In this document: positions 2,710 to 48,114 of the stretch, piece by piece
How the letters are laid out: every line of letters starts with the position of its first letter
Position numbering within the stretch: the stretch's first letter is position 1
NCBI GenBank assembly: GCA_013388895.1
Contig: JACAEK010000006.1
Span: forward strand, 1-48,114
From: Candidatus Bathyarchaeota archaeon
Lineage (GTDB): Archaea > Thermoproteota > Bathyarchaeia > Bathyarchaeales > Bathycorpusculaceae
DNA length: 48,114 nt
Direction: 5' to 3'
Position numbers and translations under genes: made by a program
Notes under the pieces: model-generated
What the model was told of the DNA's origin: nothing
Databases searched by the model: none
Seen by the model: only the letters and a program-made list of their open reading frames with translations

Positions 2710-3684
2710 TTACAGCGACGTGCTTATGTTTGTCATCTTTGCGACTGCCTTACTGCGTAAAATGCCCAAACCGAATCGAGTTGTAGCCCTAGCGCCGTAC
2801 TTGCCAGCTTTTATGTCTTCCCAGTCTTCGACGGTTATGTCTCTGCGCAACAGCATCACAGAAGCCACACGATTGTCTACTGCGTAGGCTGTTCCATTAG
2901 GCACAAGCGTGCTAGCTTGAACCCGCATGCCTAAAACACTTGTAACCGTGCCCTGTTCAAGGTCTGTCTGTCCAGAAGGCAAGTATTGAGCGTGGATAAA
3001 CTTGTCATCATTGAGCAGTTGATGCAATTGAACTTCGTTTACTGCGAGGACCGTGGGTCGCCAGTTCTCGCCTCTAACAGCGTTATGCAGCTTAACTAGG
3101 CCATTCCAGTTCATAGCTGCTCCACCCTGGTCTATTGGGGCTCCTCCGGCCAAGTCAGCGTCTGCAACTGCACCATAAAGTTCAAGAATGCTGTCTGTTT
3201 CTTCTTCGCCTAAGGCTCTGCCCACTTTCTCTACCATGTTATCCATAACGTTCCATGTGGCGTCTTCGAGGAATTCGCGAGTCCACTCTTCAGAAGCCTC
3301 AGCAAGAATGTTCGTGTAAACGTCAACAGTGCTAATTTTCTTCCCGCTCAGTCTTGTAACTGCGCCTTCAGCGTATCGGTATGCAACAGCATCTTCGTCT
3401 AGTGGGAATCTTTCCATCGTTTCGGTTGTTGGTCTCACTGTGATTATGTTTCTGCCAATCATTTCCGGATAAGCAGCCTGCACAAGCGTGTCATGCATGC
3501 GGCCAACAGCTCCGATAACATCGCTGAACAAGCCTTCCTTAACGCCGACTTCGCAGTAGCGCCTAAGAAAAGGATGCACAACTGCCTTATGCCGCATGTT
3601 CTCAACATGCTCTCTGAATTCGTTGTCGCGCTCTATCAAAGTTTCAAAAAGTCTTGGTTTCAAAGTAGTCACTTCTCCAAACAA
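2710..3684 (-). CDS. HK97-type major capsid protein
   Basis: A 324-residue protein with the character of HK97-fold major capsid proteins. An N-terminal charged helical arm (residues 1-60) is followed by a mixed alpha/beta P-domain and A-domain, including a helix with EASEEWTREFLEDATWNVMD, an NGLVKLHNAVRG segment, and near the C-terminus a GTVTSVLGMRVQAS element then AVDNRVASVMLLRRDITVEDW, the pattern seen in many phage and haloarchaeal virus capsid proteins. It overlaps the preceding decoration gene by 16 bp, and the protease gene lies just before that, the canonical protease-to-capsid order. I see no obvious protease-removed scaffold domain beyond the short arm. Confidence 0.82.
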   Translation of the reverse strand: MFGEVTTLKPRLFETLIERDNEFREHVENMRHKAVVHPFLRRYCEVGVKEGLFSDVIGAVGRMHDTLVQAAYPEMIGRNIITVRPTTETMERFPLDEDAVAYRYAEGAVTRLSGKKISTVDVYTNILAEASEEWTREFLEDATWNVMDNMVEKVGRALGEEETDSILELYGAVADADLAGGAPIDQGGAAMNWNGLVKLHNAVRGENWRPTVLAVNEVQLHQLLNDDKFIHAQYLPSGQTDLEQGTVTSVLGMRVQASTLVPNGTAYAVDNRVASVMLLRRDITVEDWEDIKAGKYGARATTRFGLGILRSKAVAKMTNISTSL

Positions 3685-4100
3685 ATGAATAGTAAGTCGT
3701 CCGCGGCTGAAGTTGTTGCCAATGCTGTTCCAAGCTTGCGGTTATAGTAAATCGTATATGTGCCCGTTCCACCCTCGTTTACAGCTTGATCAGTTAACTG
3801 CAACACTCTCCTCGACGAATCAGCGCCATAAACGGCTTTGCCTCGAGTTATGGCGCCGCCAGCCTTCACTTTGACTCTTCCACGTGTCAAGACGGGACAT
3901 TGATCGCCTGAAGAAACAGTTTTGACCGCAATGCCTATGCAGTCTTGGGCTGAAGTTGCTGGAGCAATTTTATTGTCTGCGCTTAGATAAACTGGATCGC
4001 CCTTTGTGACATCTGTAGTAGCCTCAAAAGCTTCAATGACAGCGTTGGGGTCGTCTGTTTCGCCGATTGCCATCCAAATTTTGTCAGTTAAATCTGCCAT
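3669..4100 (-). CDS. Capsid decoration/stabilisation protein (DUF2190-like)
   Basis: A 143-residue, mostly beta protein that resembles the DUF2190 type of phage capsid cement proteins. Features are VTKGDPVYLSADNKI near residue 35, a run with AQDCIGIAVKTVSSGDQCPVL, then GRVKVKAGGAITRGKAVYG, the usual small beta-barrel repeats of this family. Such proteins bind the outside of HK97 shells. Position between the protease and the major capsid gene supports the call. The stop codon lies inside the start of the capsid gene. The family name is my reading of the pattern rather than a database hit. Confidence 0.6.
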   Translation of the reverse strand: MADLTDKIWMAIGETDDPNAVIEAFEATTDVTKGDPVYLSADNKIAPATSAQDCIGIAVKTVSSGDQCPVLTRGRVKVKAGGAITRGKAVYGADSSRRVLQLTDQAVNEGGTGTYTIYYNRKLGTALATTSAADDLLFICLEK

Positions 4101-39900: not shown

Positions 39901-40302
39901 TTACATGGGTTTGAAGTAATATCTGGGCCATTGAGGCCACGGTTGTGTCGTTGTGCATGTTCCAAAGTCTAATGTTAAGGGCATCCCAATTCTTATCTGC
40001 TCCAGAGCTACGCCTCTAATCATGCCAGGAATGTTCACGCCATTTTCCAGCTGGACTATGCCCACAGCATAAGGCGCCATGCCTTGAAACTGCGGCGGCG
40101 CAACATGAATAACCGTGTATGTTAGCAGTTTTCCTTTTTGTGGAAGCTCAGTCCATTCGAACTTCTTTGAGAAGCAGTTGCTGCAAAGAGGTCTTGGTGG
40201 TAGATGCACTTTTCCGCATTTTTTGCACTTACCACCCAAAAGTTTGCCTTCCAGCATATTCTTGTAGAATTGTTCTATTGTGAATGGTGCTTGTTCACCC
40301 AT
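39901..40302 (-). CDS. DUF35 zinc-ribbon/OB-fold protein, partner of thiolase 1
   Basis: About 133 residues from the Met at 40302, which follows an AGGAGAGG and opens the family sequence GEQAPFTIEQFYKNML; the frame runs 19 codons further. A rubredoxin-like zinc ribbon (GGKCKKCGKVHLPPRPLCSNCF) precedes the OB-fold (LLTYTVIHVAPPQFQGM, then YAVGIVQLENGVNIPG). In archaea DUF35 proteins bind a thiolase and pass intermediates to HMG-CoA synthase. The gene starts four bases after the thiolase stop, so they are made together. Confidence 0.92.
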   Translation of the reverse strand: MGEQAPFTIEQFYKNMLEGKLLGGKCKKCGKVHLPPRPLCSNCFSKKFEWTELPQKGKLLTYTVIHVAPPQFQGMAPYAVGIVQLENGVNIPGMIRGVALEQIRIGMPLTLDFGTCTTTQPWPQWPRYYFKPM

Positions 40303-40306
40303 GGCT

Positions 40307-41491
40307 TTAGCCTCTCCTGTAAATGTGAATCGTTGCAGTGGCGCCTGAACCACCAACATTATGCGTCAATCCCACTTCAGCATTTCCTACTTGACGCTTC
40401 TCTGCTTGTCCAGTCAGCTGCAGATACATCTCATAGGCTTGGGCTGTTCCAGTTGCGCCTACCGGATGCCCCTTCGACTTTAATCCGCCACTCGTGTTCA
40501 CTGGGATTCCTCCTCCCAATTTCGTCTCACTTTTCTCCACGAGGCCACTGCCCTCACCCGGTTTACAAAAGCCCAAATCCTCGTAGGCAATAATCTCGGC
40601 TATAGTGAAGCAGTCGTGAACTTCTGCAACGTTCACGTCTTCCGGCTTCAAGTCAGCCATTTCATAAGCTTTGTTTGCAGCTATTTTGGCAGAAACAAGA
40701 GATGTGAAGCCTTCTCTTTCATACATGCCTATGGTGTCGCTGGCTTGTCCGCTTCCAACTATGTGCACTGGCATGTCTGTATATCTTTTGGCTAGTTCTG
40801 GTCTGGTCAGAATTAAGCAACTTGCGCCGTCAGTGATTAGGGAGCAATCATAAAGCTTAAGGGGCCAAGCTATGACTCTTGAAGATAAGGCTGTTTCAAG
40901 CGTTATTTCCTTTTGCATGTGCGCTTTCGGGTTTAGGCTTCCGTGATAATGGTTTTTCACTGAAACCATGGCTAGATGTTGTTCCGTAGTGCCATACTTG
41001 TGCATGTGCGCAGTCGCCATTAACGCAAACAACCCTGGAAAAGTTATGCCATGCCACTGTTCAAAAGGATAATCAGAAGCCATAGCCAAATACTCTGTTA
41101 CCTCGGGCGTTGTTCTATGCGTCATTTTTTCAATACCGCCAACCATAACAACATCGCACAAGCCTGAAAGAACAGCGTAGATTCCAGCTCTAAGGGCAGC
41201 GCCAGAAGAAGCGCACGCAGCTTCAGTTCTAGTGGCTGGAATATGAAGTAAACCTGCCCAGTCAGCCATTGTCGCGCCTGTATGTCCTTGATGCTCGTAG
41301 GCTTCTCCCATGTGCCCAACAAACATAGCTTGAATGTCATTCTTCGGGTTTAGATTTGGGCAACGGTCGAAGGCTTCTTTTGCTGCTTCCGCAAAGATTT
41401 CCCTGGCGTAAAGGCCCTCCAGTTTTCCAAACTTTGACAAGCCCGCAGAAACGATTGAAACGAGGGGTTTACCCTTCAAAGCGAAATTCAC
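40307..41491 (-). CDS. Thiolase (archaeal SCP-x-type acetyl-CoA acetyltransferase)
   Basis: A 394-residue thiolase. The nucleophile Cys93 is in EAACASSGAAL; the next catalytic blocks are the His in EVHDCFTIAEI and the His in SKGHPVGATG; the C-terminal loop is HNVGGSGATATIH. This is the full catalytic set of the archaeal acetoacetyl-CoA thiolase group, which works in mevalonate synthesis and in acyl-CoA degradation. The DUF35 partner follows at once. A TATA-like TACTTAAATACT is found upstream near 41535-41550. Confidence 0.92.
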   Translation of the reverse strand: MNFALKGKPLVSIVSAGLSKFGKLEGLYAREIFAEAAKEAFDRCPNLNPKNDIQAMFVGHMGEAYEHQGHTGATMADWAGLLHIPATRTEAACASSGAALRAGIYAVLSGLCDVVMVGGIEKMTHRTTPEVTEYLAMASDYPFEQWHGITFPGLFALMATAHMHKYGTTEQHLAMVSVKNHYHGSLNPKAHMQKEITLETALSSRVIAWPLKLYDCSLITDGASCLILTRPELAKRYTDMPVHIVGSGQASDTIGMYEREGFTSLVSAKIAANKAYEMADLKPEDVNVAEVHDCFTIAEIIAYEDLGFCKPGEGSGLVEKSETKLGGGIPVNTSGGLKSKGHPVGATGTAQAYEMYLQLTGQAEKRQVGNAEVGLTHNVGGSGATATIHIYRRG

Positions 41492-41628: not shown

Positions 41629-42312
41629 TTATTTTCCAAACGTTTTCTTAACCCAAGCGCGTGTTTTTTCCATGTCTTCTCTGAAGCGTTTCAGTTCTTC
41701 GGGCGTTCGTTTTGGCGCTTTAGGCTTTTCTGCAGGCGTCGCATAAACGTCTAAGAGGTCGCCTTTTGGCTGTTTCTCGATGTGTATGTTTACTCTTAAC
41801 CCAATGTTAACTTTCTCCGGATCAATGTCTCTCATTGTCATCGGCAGGCAAGTGTTTGTTCCATCTATTCTAACCATTGCACCAACTAGTGGTTGGAGAT
41901 GAGCCATAGAAGGCCAAGCAATAGCCATAACTGTGTGCGCGTGGACTTCGCCTTTTTTCGAAAGTTCAACCCATTTTGTCTCTTCTAATCTGCATTTAGG
42001 ATTGAAGCAGTGTGCACGTGGTGGGCAGTAGACTAATCCGCATTTTGGACATTTTGTTCCATACAATTTGCCCTCTAGAAGTCCCATGAAGAATTTTGAG
42101 GTTTTGCCGTAGCTGTGATGAAACATGTTGCCGTGTGGACGATGTACAATCAGGAATTTCTCGGGTCTCAGATTATTCAATGTTGGACCATCGTTCATTT
42201 CAATTATTTTCCATCCTTCAGGTCTCCAGCCGCCTTTACGTATCCAGTTGTCCCACCATTTTTCGTCAATCTTTTGTTCCTTCAAAACCTTTTCAGGTCC
42301 AGGTTGCTTCAT
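41629..42312 (-). CDS. DUF35 zinc-ribbon/OB-fold protein, partner of thiolase-like 2, with extensions
   Basis: A 227-residue DUF35 protein, longer than the usual 130. The N-terminal 75 residues (WWDNWIRKGGWRPEGWKII) are an added segment. Then come the zinc ribbon (GTKCPKCGLVYCPPRAHCFNPKC) and the OB-fold (VHAHTVMAIAWPSM, MVRIDGTNTCLPM). The C-terminal 50 residues form a basic Pro-rich linker and helix (RTPEELKRFREDMEKTRAWV). It starts four bases after the thiolase-like gene, so the two form a complex by analogy with other thiolase/DUF35 pairs. Confidence 0.9.
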   Translation of the reverse strand: MKQPGPEKVLKEQKIDEKWWDNWIRKGGWRPEGWKIIEMNDGPTLNNLRPEKFLIVHRPHGNMFHHSYGKTSKFFMGLLEGKLYGTKCPKCGLVYCPPRAHCFNPKCRLEETKWVELSKKGEVHAHTVMAIAWPSMAHLQPLVGAMVRIDGTNTCLPMTMRDIDPEKVNIGLRVNIHIEKQPKGDLLDVYATPAEKPKAPKRTPEELKRFREDMEKTRAWVKKTFGK

Positions 42313-42316
42313 TGTC

Positions 42317-43612
42317 TTACACCTCCAAAACTACAGCGCCTGCCTGACAGCCAGTGCCGCCATGTCCATGAATGAAGCCTTTCTTTGGTTTGCTTAATTG
42401 TCTTCCAGGTGCGCCCCATTTCTTGCCAATTTGATTGCTAAGTTGCCAGTAAACGTCAACCACTTGAGCAACAGACGTAGAGCCCACTGCATGTCCCTGA
42501 GCTGTTAAAGCGCCGCTTAGTTGGCAAGGAAGCTCCCCGTGAGGCTGTATCACGCCTTCTCTGAGCAGTTTCTTTCCTTCGCCTCTTTTACAGAAGTCAA
42601 AGTCCTCTAGCCCTGCCAAGACTACGCCTGCATATGGGTCAAAGATTTCGACGAGGCTTATCTCTTTTCGTGGGTTCCTTATTCCAGCGTCCTTGTAGGC
42701 CATTCGTGCAGACACTCTTAATGCGCCGAAATTGCATAGGTCTGGGTATGGCGACATGGGGGCGGGAACGTGTTTTGGCCAGATTTTTTCGTCTTCTGGG
42801 TATAATCCTTTCCATGCTGGATTGTCTGGTCTATCTCCAGCTCTCATAGTGTCTGACCCGAAGCCCACGCCGGATATCCAGACTGGATTGTCAGTTAACT
42901 TCTTTGTTGTTTCCTCATTTGCTAAGAGTAATGCTGAGGCGCCTTCGCTTGTCATTGCACATTCATAAAGCCTATATGGCCAAGAGATTAAGCGGGACTT
43001 GTACACGTCGTCAATGGTGATTTTGCTGAAGCCATGTTGGGCTGGCCACTGTGCGTATGGATTTTCAAGTGAATTGTTGTGGCATAACACTGAAACTTGA
43101 GCCAAGTCTTCTTCTGTTTCACCATAAACATGCATTCGTCTTGCTTCCATTGTGGCGTAGAAGGCATTGTAAGTAAAGCCTGACACAAAGTCCCAGTCTG
43201 TGTCTCCTGCGATGGCTATTGCTTCATTGACTTTTTGGATTGGCAGTTCGTCCATTTTTTCCCATCCTACTACGAGGACTGCGGGGAACATGCCTGAACG
43301 TATCCACAGAGCCGCATTTACTATTGCGTCTATTGGTGTTGCTCCACCTGATTCCACCCGATAGCATGGTACGGCGCTTAGTCCCAGATAGTCGTTGATT
43401 ATCCAGTGCATGCATTGTTGCTGTTCTAGAATGTCGCTGAAATATGAGTAGCAACAAGCGTATCCTTTCTTTACGAAGTCTCCAAGTTCAAGGTCTGGTA
43501 CTTCATCTAATATCATTTTGACGGCTTCTGCACACATTTCTTCTTGCAAAGTATGTCTAGGATTGTCAAATCTGGAAATGCTGCCAGCAACTATTCCGAC
43601 TTTCTTTGCCAA
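42317..43612 (-). CDS. Thiolase-like protein lacking the nucleophilic cysteine
   Basis: A 431-residue thiolase homologue. It aligns without gaps to thiolase 1 around the active site, but has RVESGGATPIDA where thiolase 1 has RTEAACASSGAA, so Gly90 stands at the Cys position. The EVHDCFT block becomes EIFDPYA, while the final His block (AQGHAVGST) is kept. Without the Cys it cannot do the usual Claisen chemistry. Thiolase-like aldolases such as Ltp2 also lack Cys and work with a DUF35 partner, so a retro-aldol or scaffolding role is possible. The DUF35 gene follows at four bases. Confidence 0.85.
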   Translation of the reverse strand: MAKKVGIVAGSISRFDNPRHTLQEEMCAEAVKMILDEVPDLELGDFVKKGYACCYSYFSDILEQQQCMHWIINDYLGLSAVPCYRVESGGATPIDAIVNAALWIRSGMFPAVLVVGWEKMDELPIQKVNEAIAIAGDTDWDFVSGFTYNAFYATMEARRMHVYGETEEDLAQVSVLCHNNSLENPYAQWPAQHGFSKITIDDVYKSRLISWPYRLYECAMTSEGASALLLANEETTKKLTDNPVWISGVGFGSDTMRAGDRPDNPAWKGLYPEDEKIWPKHVPAPMSPYPDLCNFGALRVSARMAYKDAGIRNPRKEISLVEIFDPYAGVVLAGLEDFDFCKRGEGKKLLREGVIQPHGELPCQLSGALTAQGHAVGSTSVAQVVDVYWQLSNQIGKKWGAPGRQLSKPKKGFIHGHGGTGCQAGAVVLEV

Positions 43613-43712: not shown

Positions 43713-43723
43713 CTTTTATAAAC
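43713..43723 (+). promoter_or_regulatory. TATA box of the KAS-like gene
   Basis: CTTTTATAAAC is centred about 28 nt before the ATG at 43746. In archaea transcription starts about 25-27 nt after the TATA box, so the message would be leaderless. No Shine-Dalgarno is seen before this ATG, in agreement. Confidence 0.55.
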
Positions 43724-43745: not shown

Positions 43746-44852
43746 ATGAATATACTGGATCTAGCCGCTGCTTTTCCGAAAGACAAGTATTCCACAGAGA
43801 GCCTAATGCAGATTTTCCCATGTGAGCTTCCCGAAGGGGTCAGGCAAAACGTGCTCAATCTGGGAGTATCAGAACGCTATCTCCTAGATCATGTTGACTC
43901 ACAAACTGCGATGAGCGAAACTGAACTCGTAAATCTTTGCTCAGAAGCTTGCCAAAAAGTTATGGAGAAATCCGCACTGTCGCTTAGGGATGTAGGCTTT
44001 TTTGTAGCGACTTATGACGTAAACCCATTCTTAAGTCCGGGTCTAAGCCAGCTCTTAACCCGAGAAATTGGTTTTGACTGTTACATTAAGCATGCTAACA
44101 TACAAGGAATAGCCAGCACAGCATTCTCAAAAGCCCTTGAAATTGCAGAAAACTACTTGGCAAGAAATGAGAAAGACTACGCTTTGGTTAGCATTTCGGG
44201 AGTAAGCTCATGCTGGTTTCAAAATCAAGTGCACGGATTGAAAGATGTTTTGGAAATCAGCAAAATCAACCAGATAAAAAACAAGGAAAAAAGACAGACA
44301 GAATTAAGGAAGTGGATTGCAACCATGGAGTTTTTCCTTTTCGGAGACGGTGTAGCTGCTGCAGTTGTGTCAAGGAATGGTGAAGGGTTATCTGTTGAAA
44401 AAGGTGTGGAAGTCACTAACATCAGAAAAAAGGACTATTTGGCTGGCTACGCTGCCCTCACTGCTGTTAGCGAGCCTTTCAAATTCGGCTTCTATTCAAA
44501 CCTTGGCAAAGAAATTCCCGAGTTAGGAGCAGAGTACACGGCTTTAGCGCTTAAGAAGTTGCTTGGAAAAGAAGCAGAAAGCATTACAGGAACAGCAAGG
44601 AAATGGGCGGTTCACACTGGGAGCGAAAAAATCCTTAACAGAATAGCAGAAACCCACAACATTGCCTACGAAAAGATTAGAGAATCGCACGAAGTGCTTA
44701 GAGATTGCGGCAATTTAGCTGGAGCCAGCTTACCAGCTATACTTGAAAAAATAGTTTCAGGCGGCAAGCTTTCAAGGAATGATGTTGTGCTGATGGTTGG
44801 TTATGGGTGGGGATTTTCAGCCGCTGCAACTCTACTAAGATATGAAAGATAA
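43746..44852 (+). CDS. KAS III/type III PKS-fold protein with Gln at the nucleophile position
   Basis: A 368-residue thiolase-fold protein. His290 (WAVHTGSEKIL) and Asn323 (RDCGNLAGAS) match the catalytic His and Asn of KAS III and chalcone-synthase-like enzymes. The nucleophile block, GC-[FH]-AG in type III PKS, reads ANIQGIASTAF here, so Gln120 replaces Cys while the following ALEIAEN helix is kept. Cys-to-Gln is the KSQ change known to turn ketosynthases into malonyl decarboxylases. The gene is divergent from the thiolase-like gene and overlaps the next gene by 11 bp. Substrate unknown; HMG-CoA synthase is excluded by the missing Cys. Confidence 0.75.
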   Translation: MNILDLAAAFPKDKYSTESLMQIFPCELPEGVRQNVLNLGVSERYLLDHVDSQTAMSETELVNLCSEACQKVMEKSALSLRDVGFFVATYDVNPFLSPGLSQLLTREIGFDCYIKHANIQGIASTAFSKALEIAENYLARNEKDYALVSISGVSSCWFQNQVHGLKDVLEISKINQIKNKEKRQTELRKWIATMEFFLFGDGVAAAVVSRNGEGLSVEKGVEVTNIRKKDYLAGYAALTAVSEPFKFGFYSNLGKEIPELGAEYTALALKKLLGKEAESITGTARKWAVHTGSEKILNRIAETHNIAYEKIRESHEVLRDCGNLAGASLPAILEKIVSGGKLSRNDVVLMVGYGWGFSAAATLLRYER

Positions 44853-45540
44853 GGCTTCAATGGAATGGACATTTATGGAGAACCACAAAATGCAGAAAGG
44901 ACTCAGCCAGAATCACATTGTAGATGAGACGTTAAAAGCCCTTAAACGAAACAGATTCAGAGCGGTTTATGTGGAAAATCGGAAAAAAGCTTTACAGAGC
45001 ATTATGGAAGAAATACCTTCAAACGCCACTATTGGCGTAGGAGACTCGTTAACGTTAAAGGAAATTGGCGTTTTTGAGGAATTGAAGCACAGAGGCTTCA
45101 CGTTGTTTTGGCCGTTTGATGAGAAGGTTGCCAAGGAAAACAGAAGAGCTGTTATGCGAAAAGCTTTGCTAGCAGACATATTCTTGTCAAGCTCAAACGC
45201 AGTTACTGTGGATGGAAAAATCGTGAATGTTGACGCTACTGGAAACAGGGTTGCAGGTTTAGTTTTTGGACCTAGAAAGGCGATTGTAGTGGTTGGAGTG
45301 AACAAGATAGTGAAGAATGTGGAAGAAGCCCTAGAAAGAATTAAGACTATAGCGGCGCCATTAAATGCGAAGAGAATCAGAGAAGAGCGTGGTTGGGAAT
45401 TGTTGCCCTGCGTTGAAACTGGGAAATGTGTGGACTGTAGTGCAGAGAACCGAATATGCAACATAACCGCCATCATAGAGAAGAAGCCTAGAGCCATAGA
45501 CTTGCTTGTAATCATTATAGGAGAAAACTTGGGACTATAA
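44842..45540 (+). CDS. LUD-domain (LutC/DUF162-like) protein
   Basis: A 232-residue LUD-domain protein. Signatures are NATIGVGDSLTLKEIGVFEEL, LADIFLSSSNAVTVDGKIVNVDATGNR and FGPRKAIVVVGVNKIVKN. A Cys motif (TGKCVDCSAENRICN) near the C-terminus could hold a metal. LUD domains occur in lactate-utilisation enzymes and in many small proteins of unknown role in anaerobes. It overlaps the KAS-like gene by 11 bp. The true start could be one of the Mets up to 16 codons further in, since the first residues are unlike the family. Confidence 0.88.
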   Translation: MKDKASMEWTFMENHKMQKGLSQNHIVDETLKALKRNRFRAVYVENRKKALQSIMEEIPSNATIGVGDSLTLKEIGVFEELKHRGFTLFWPFDEKVAKENRRAVMRKALLADIFLSSSNAVTVDGKIVNVDATGNRVAGLVFGPRKAIVVVGVNKIVKNVEEALERIKTIAAPLNAKRIREERGWELLPCVETGKCVDCSAENRICNITAIIEKKPRAIDLLVIIIGENLGL

Positions 45541-47248: not shown

Positions 47249-48114
47249 ATGTTTGACAAAGAAAACATCAACCAAATAAAAAAGCAACGAGAACGCTGGG
47301 AGAAAACCACGCTTCTGAACTGGATTAAACAGAGCCACGAAAGAAAAACCGAATTTCACAATCATTCGGGCATGACGATAAAACGCTTGTACACGCCAGA
47401 AGACATCGGAAAAATGGATCACATGCGAGACATGGGCTTTCCAGGCGAATATCCATTTCTCCGAGGTGTCCATGCAACCATGTATCGAGGACGATTATGG
47501 ACCATGCGAATGTTTGCAGGGTACGGCATGGCAAAAGAGACAAACAAACGCTTCAAATACTTGCTGAAGGAAGGCGAAACAGGATTAAGCACGGCTTTTG
47601 ATTACCCAACAATAATGGGATATGATTCAGACCATCCAATGGCAAAAGGCGAAGTAGGCATTTGCGGAGTAGCCATATCTTCATTGCAAGACATGGAAGT
47701 GCTTTTTGACGGCATACCACTTGACCAAGTTACAACGTCTATGACCATAAACGGTCCTGCACCTATGCTCTTGGCTATGTATGTGGCTGTGGGCGACAAA
47801 CAAGGCGTGCCACGAGAAAAGCTTGGCGGAACAACCCAAAACGACAATCTAAAAGAGTTTTTCGCCCAAAAACTGTGCATATTCCCACCGAAATCTTCTG
47901 TGAAACTCACAACAGACATAATCGAACACTGCGCTAGGCATTTGCCTAAATGGAATCCAGTAAGCATAAGCGGCTACCACATCCGAGAGGCAGGCGCAAC
48001 AGCACTTCAAGAATTAGCTTTCACACTTTATGACGGCATATCCTACGTAGAATCCACACTAGAAAGAGGATTAAAAGTGGACGACTTTGCGCACAGATTA
48101 TCCTTCTTCTTCGC
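47249..48114 (+). CDS. B12-dependent acyl-CoA mutase large subunit, isobutyryl-CoA-mutase-like (partial)
   Basis: The first 288 residues of a methylmalonyl-CoA mutase-family TIM barrel, cut by the window end. Family blocks are [45 protein letters not shown] and [12 protein letters not shown]. In the classical mutase Tyr89, Arg207 and His244 hold the substrate. At the same numbers this protein has Phe89 (TMRMFAGYG), Gln207 ([10 protein letters not shown]) and His244. Phe and Gln are the isobutyryl-CoA mutase residues, so n-butyryl/isobutyryl-CoA or another acyl-CoA is the likelier substrate. A GAGG lies seven bases before the ATG. The B12-binding part is expected beyond the window. Confidence 0.88.

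Follow-up and report, generated by a model that had tools for sequence, protein, structure and literature searches.

Genetic organization of the locus

The window, meaning the whole stretch of 48,114 nucleotides that was analysed, carries near its 3' end an intact open reading frame for a 368-residue protein, P0001, which is flanked on the opposite strand by thiolase and DUF35 genes and followed downstream by a gene for a B12-dependent acyl-CoA mutase. The relevant features, with the basis of each assignment, are:

39901..40359, minus strand: DUF35 protein, 152 aa (domain search)
40307..41491, minus strand: canonical thiolase with the Cys and both His motifs (domain search, alignment)
41629..42312, minus strand: DUF35 protein (ChsH2-like zinc ribbon/OB), 227 aa (domain search)
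42317..43612, minus strand: Cys-less thiolase paralogue, with VESGGAT at the nucleophile and FDPY for HDCF (alignment)
43715..43722, plus strand: TATA-like box, 31 nt 5' of the ATG (comparison of upstream regions)
43746..44852, plus strand: P0001, Ser-type KAS III/type III PKS-like protein, 368 aa (intact ORF)
44103..44105, plus strand: Gln120 codon, a strand residue and not the nucleophile position (homologue alignment, AF2 model)
44115..44117, plus strand: Ser124 codon AGC, replacing the catalytic Cys equivalent to Cys164 of chalcone synthase (alignments, orthologues)
44340..44342, plus strand: Phe199 codon (Phe215 of chalcone synthase) (alignment)
44613..44615, plus strand: His290 codon (His303 of chalcone synthase) (alignment)
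44712..44714, plus strand: Asn323 codon (Asn336 of chalcone synthase) (alignment)
47249..48112, plus strand: large subunit of a B12-dependent acyl-CoA mutase, truncated by the window end (sequence)

This organization agrees with the first-pass annotation in that P0001 is encoded by a stand-alone, single-domain gene with no PKS modules nearby, adjoining two DUF35 proteins and a degenerate thiolase, which proves to be Cys-less. Seven of the nine genes of the Ser-type, so called for the Ser at the nucleophile position, are divergent from the thiolase/DUF35/Cys-less-thiolase/DUF35 quartet, the exceptions being L008, which ends at a contig end, and L005 (G031), whose quartet is located elsewhere on the same contig. 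The mutase gene lies downstream in eight of the nine Ser-type loci, and in complete loci is followed by genes for the B12 subunit, MeaB and the CobO adenosyltransferase. The seven further full-length Ser-type genes likewise have TTTTAT(A) boxes about as far upstream, and the start codon at 43746 is supported by the presence of such a box 31 nt upstream. The ORF of a LUD-domain protein (44842-45540) overlaps the end of the P0001 gene and is not conserved at other loci. Far upstream, at 2710-4100 on the minus strand, a possible provirus remnant is suggested by a pair of adjacent ORFs with matches to phage major head and head scaffolding/decoration proteins.

P0001 has a predicted KAS III/type III polyketide synthase fold

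Sequence, profile and structure matches relate P0001 along its whole length to KAS III and type III PKS. The C-terminal models ACP_syn_III_C (6e-12) and Chal_sti_synt_C (1.5e-8) exceed the Pfam cut-offs, whereas the N-terminal models, including that of KAS III and FAE1_CUT1_RppA, fall under them. A search of NCBIfam returned zero models at their cut-off, and the FabH subfamily model TIGR00747 scored 51 bits against a cut-off of 292, which places P0001 outside FabH. The top PDB matches with P0001 as a single-sequence query were type III PKS and KAS III, and a profile of 21 orthologues gave THNS (1u0m) as the best match, with an E value of 8e-20. An AF2 model (pLDDT 83, pTM 0.88) retrieved CylI (8yw7) first in Foldseek (E 4e-25), followed by FabH and OleA, and thus the fold is by prediction that of KAS III/type III polyketide synthases. 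HMG-CoA synthase identity was rejected, since archaeal HMG-CoA synthase models gave no match listed at E<=10 and the HMG-CoA synthase of this genome is encoded by a separate gene (contig C8) with its own adjoining thiolase. A search of the open-access literature returned neither a report on the P0001 family nor a characterised archaeal type III PKS.

The nucleophilic Cys is replaced by Ser124

The first-pass annotation had taken Gln120 as the replacement of the catalytic Cys, the hallmark of KSQ domains, and Gln120 does fall under the Cys when the sequences are lined up ungapped from the helix (AEN). This reading is a misalignment by four residues. Every printed alignment that covers the site places the Cys opposite residue 124: those of THNS, CylI and OleA in single-sequence comparisons, and those of THNS, PKS18, 2-pyrone synthase and chalcone synthase in profile comparisons. 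According to the AF2 model, residue 120 is the last of the strand and residue 126 the first of the helix, with the elbow formed by residues 121-125. Residue 124 is Ser in P0001 and eight orthologues and Cys in 20 Bathyarchaeia homologues, which read QGMAC or QGMGC (KGMAC in one), as well as in the two distant outgroups from another family of the same phylum (L055, NLQGLAC; L056, NFQGLAC). The codon is AGC in all nine Ser-type genes and TGC or TGT in the Cys-type genes examined. Gln120 is indeed conserved, as the annotation had asked of orthologues, in 30 of 31 homologues; 21 of these, however, have the catalytic Cys too. Thus, the nucleophile position is held by another residue, an outcome that the annotation itself had named as speaking against its proposal, and the coexistence of Gln120 and Cys124 in Cys-type orthologues and both outgroups leaves a KSQ-type enzyme with practically no probability. 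By alignment, the actual change is Cys to Ser at position 124. Calling KSQ therefore needs orthologues, as a conserved Gln four residues upstream of the nucleophile mimics the motif.

Conservation of the remaining active-site residues

The claim that the catalytic His and Asn are kept is borne out by the homologue alignment: His290 and Asn323, together with Phe199, are invariant wherever the column is present, in Ser-type and Cys-type clades alike. The correspondence to chalcone synthase residues was counted ungapped from alignments of 17-19% identity, the level shared with the type III PKSs, and holds at the level of sequence alignment. The Ser-type clade hence has a Ser-His-Asn triad in contrast to Cys-His-Asn in its sister clades, and differs in this from type III PKS. 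By the same mapping, residue 154 corresponds to Thr194, a pocket position, and Trp157 to Thr197. Residues 97, 154 and 159 have changed along with 124, while Trp157, at the Thr197-equivalent cavity position, is invariant and would leave scant room for chain elongation. P0001 resembles THNS, PKS18, chalcone synthase and CylI in predicted fold and in the active-site Phe, His and Asn, but differs from them in the Ser, in having GYGWG for the GFGPG loop and in the cavity Trp. With FabH and OleA it shares the fold, the C-terminal domain match and, in its parent family, the Cys-His-Asn layout, again with Ser at the Cys position as the difference.

Such an active site, otherwise unchanged relative to the Cys-type relatives, might still belong to a working condensing enzyme, in which Ser as a slow nucleophile would carry out one Claisen condensation on small acyl-CoAs. 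Some activity was retained by a C170S chalcone synthase in one study (PMC3431822); however, product loss upon Cys-to-Ser changes is cited by PMC3431822 and PMC6274091, and the fixation of the change, together with the accompanying changes in the pocket, suggests that the protein has taken on a new role, making continued condensation improbable.

Alternatively, P0001 may be a Ser-dependent acyltransferase or thioesterase, in which Ser124 would be acylated by an acyl-CoA and the acyl group passed with the aid of His290 to an acceptor or water. DpsC, which acts in daunorubicin priming and has a KAS III fold with Ser replacing Cys, self-acylates and transfers acyl groups (PMC12664062), and the invariance of Ser124 in nine orthologues fits such a role, as random loss is expected to drift to Ala or Gly. 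The DpsC triad is nevertheless Ser-His-Asp, whereas Asn323 is found in all Ser-type proteins, and among the genes conserved around the Ser-type loci, none for an acyl carrier protein was noticed. On balance, such a Ser-dependent transfer or hydrolysis seems rather unlikely.

A single Cys-to-Ser change maintained under purifying selection

In a tree built without column 124, the nine Ser-type proteins form a single clade (support 99/97, recovered in 100% of 200 bootstrap trees) that branches from within the Cys-type proteins, and both outgroups carry Cys. One well-supported clade implies a single Cys-to-Ser change. Close pairs have a dN/dS of 0.135 in the Ser clade and 0.10-0.12 among Cys-type proteins, and the P0001 gene is under purifying selection. 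A pseudogene was rejected in view of the dN/dS of about 0.13, the intact ORFs and the invariant His and Asn. Homologues in 30 of the 257 genomes of the class, the low dN/dS (about 0.11-0.135) and the conserved TATA-like box further indicate that the gene is more than a product of chance. Two family copies, L066 (G012 C11) and L080 (G060 C31), are split into two overlapping ORFs, reflecting frameshifts or assembly errors. The genome that encodes P0001 also contains a Cys-type second copy (L061:2436-3554, G000 C52; also L029), which is 61% identical, has Lys for Gln120 and adjoins genes for an acyl-CoA dehydrogenase and an electron transfer flavoprotein subunit.

The condensing-enzyme gene evolves faster than its surroundings: in the same genome pair, neighbouring genes have a dN/dS of 0.009-0.049 as compared to its 0.135, and P0001 is 60-66% identical to the other Ser-type copies, as compared to 83-92% identity across Ser-type loci for the canonical thiolase, the second DUF35 protein and the mutase.

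Association with a Cys-less thiolase and a divergent mutase

The Cys-less thiolase has, when aligned to its canonical paralogue, Gly at the position of the nucleophilic Cys and FDPY in place of HDCF. Its conservation far exceeds that of the neighbouring genes (dN/dS 0.009 in one pair), with 90-94% identity in all nine Ser-type genomes and across seven genera. Among the 257 genomes of the class, proteins at least 90% identical to that of the window are found in exactly these nine. Aldolases are known among the Cys-less thiolase-fold proteins that pair with DUF35, such as Sal and Ltp2 (PMC12329534).

At two positions where the other, canonical mutase of these genomes, which adjoins a carboxyltransferase gene, has Tyr and Arg, the island mutase carries Phe and Lys, with one exception (L071, Arg for Lys). 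We take these positions to be Tyr89 and Arg207 of methylmalonyl-CoA mutase, the corresponding residues in isobutyryl-CoA mutase presumably being Phe80 and Gln198. Since Phe/Lys matches neither enzyme, the island mutase probably has a new substrate specificity, of neither the methylmalonyl-CoA nor the isobutyryl-CoA type. A literature search on mutase specificity residues found nothing. Complete copies of the Phe/Lys mutase are present at L001, L002, L004, L062, L063 and L064, and matches of at least 67% identity in roughly 50 genomes of the class.

Counts of co-occurrence overstate the evidence, because members of a clade are non-independent, and the genomes are mostly MAGs, some of them incomplete. 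A better test comes from two within-genus contrasts: G000 and G003 have the Ser-type gene, the Cys-less thiolase and the Phe/Lys mutase, whereas their respective congeners G001 and G034 have none of the three. A strict pairing of Ser-type gene and mutase as functional proof is weakened by the fact that some Cys-type genes also adjoin a mutase gene and that the mutase occurs without the gene. The mutase/thiolase island is found without the condensing-enzyme gene in the sister genomes G016, G165 and G026, from which it follows that the gene is optional and not essential to the pathway. The sister-genome loci L105, L107 and L114, where this gene is absent, have an island with two different Cys-less thiolases.

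The presence of the same Cys-less thiolase in all nine Ser-type genomes raises the question of whether P0001, its nucleophile lost, might be a non-catalytic partner that holds or regulates the adjacent thiolase-DUF35 complex. PhlA of the PhlACB Friedel-Crafts acylase provides the precedent, a KAS III/HMG-CoA-synthase-like protein with Gly115 for Cys whose binding partners are a thiolase and a DUF35 protein (PMC6392133), and the two share the loss of Cys and the gene association. Yet PhlA resembles HMG-CoA synthase and has Gly in place of the Cys, while P0001 resembles type III PKS/KAS III with Ser there, in a genome with a separately encoded HMG-CoA synthase. Its gene is on the strand opposite to the thiolase/DUF35 genes with its own promoter-like box, it evolves far faster than its would-be partners, and the active-site His, Asn and Phe are invariant. 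In G058, moreover, the Cys-less thiolase-DUF35 pair is present and a match to the P0001 family absent. The role of a non-catalytic partner is accordingly judged unlikely.

A KS-S-type decarboxylase as the favoured reading

As it stands, P0001 is most likely, though tentatively so on sequence grounds, a KS-S-type decarboxylase of a malonyl-type CoA ester. Of the original interpretation, the KSQ part falls, but the idea of a free-standing relative of condensing enzymes survives, one in which the nucleophilic Cys is lost and the residues for malonyl decarboxylation are kept. By analogy, the nearest precedent is KS-S (PMC12843615, PMC4540446) and not KSQ: Ser occupies the nucleophilic Cys position and the catalytic His is kept (Ser124 and His290 in P0001), whereas KSQ domains have Gln there. 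KS-S and KSQ are, however, loading domains of modular PKSs with AT and ACP, and P0001 is a stand-alone archaeal protein of the KAS III type.

The acyl-carrying Cys has been replaced once by Ser124, with retention of Phe199, His290 and Asn323, the residues for the binding and decarboxylation of malonyl-type CoA. In the mechanism envisaged, P0001 would bind a (substituted) malonyl-CoA ester, possibly a branched, alkyl-malonyl-like ester supplied by the island mutase, and its His/Asn oxyanion site would decarboxylate it without efficient condensation. It would thereby act in the adjacent acyl-CoA pathway together with the B12 acyl-CoA mutase and the thiolase-DUF35 and Cys-less thiolase-DUF35 pairs. 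Decarboxylation is favoured because the starter-loading residue is lost and the decarboxylation residues are kept, because KS-S provides a precedent and because the genes of two Cys-type relatives form part of a methylmalonyl-CoA cluster that includes a carboxyltransferase, an epimerase-like glyoxalase and a biotin ligase. The C164A and C164S mutants of chalcone synthase show no more than modest effects on the decarboxylation of malonyl-CoA, which is impaired or lost when His303, Asn336 or Phe215 is altered (PMC6274091). For the KS-S domains of polyene loading modules, retained decarboxylation with reduced condensation has been described (PMC12843615). The co-changed residues 97, 154 and 159, the cavity Trp157, the adjoining mutase gene and the joint absence of all three genes from G001 and G034 also favour a decarboxylase. 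Against it stand the ability of Ser to act as a nucleophile, the occurrence of the island without the gene and the much faster evolution of the gene than of its neighbours. The mutagenesis of NysA also counts against it, being less clear in that the Ser at the Cys position did not prove to be the residue on which decarboxylation depended (PMC4540446). The mutase, in addition, has Lys and not Arg at its carboxylate-binding position, and the substrate may hence not be a malonyl-type ester.

Implications for acyl-CoA metabolism in Bathyarchaeia

The Ser-type gene flags an acyl-CoA island of Bathyarchaeia that is conserved and uncharacterised and that encodes both a divergent B12 mutase and a Cys-less thiolase. 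A single Cys-to-Ser change that has become fixed constitutes a natural experiment, for which close relatives that retain Cys and the Cys-type paralogue L029 of the same genome serve as the comparison. More specifically, P0001 could be a free-standing KS-S-like decarboxylase of archaeal primary acyl-CoA metabolism that works on an alkylmalonyl-type CoA from the Phe/Lys-type mutase with its presumed novel specificity, a proposal drawn from the gene context that we regard as possible but doubtful. If true, such a decarboxylase would operate in a pathway that also uses thiolase-DUF35 and Cys-less thiolase-DUF35 enzymes.
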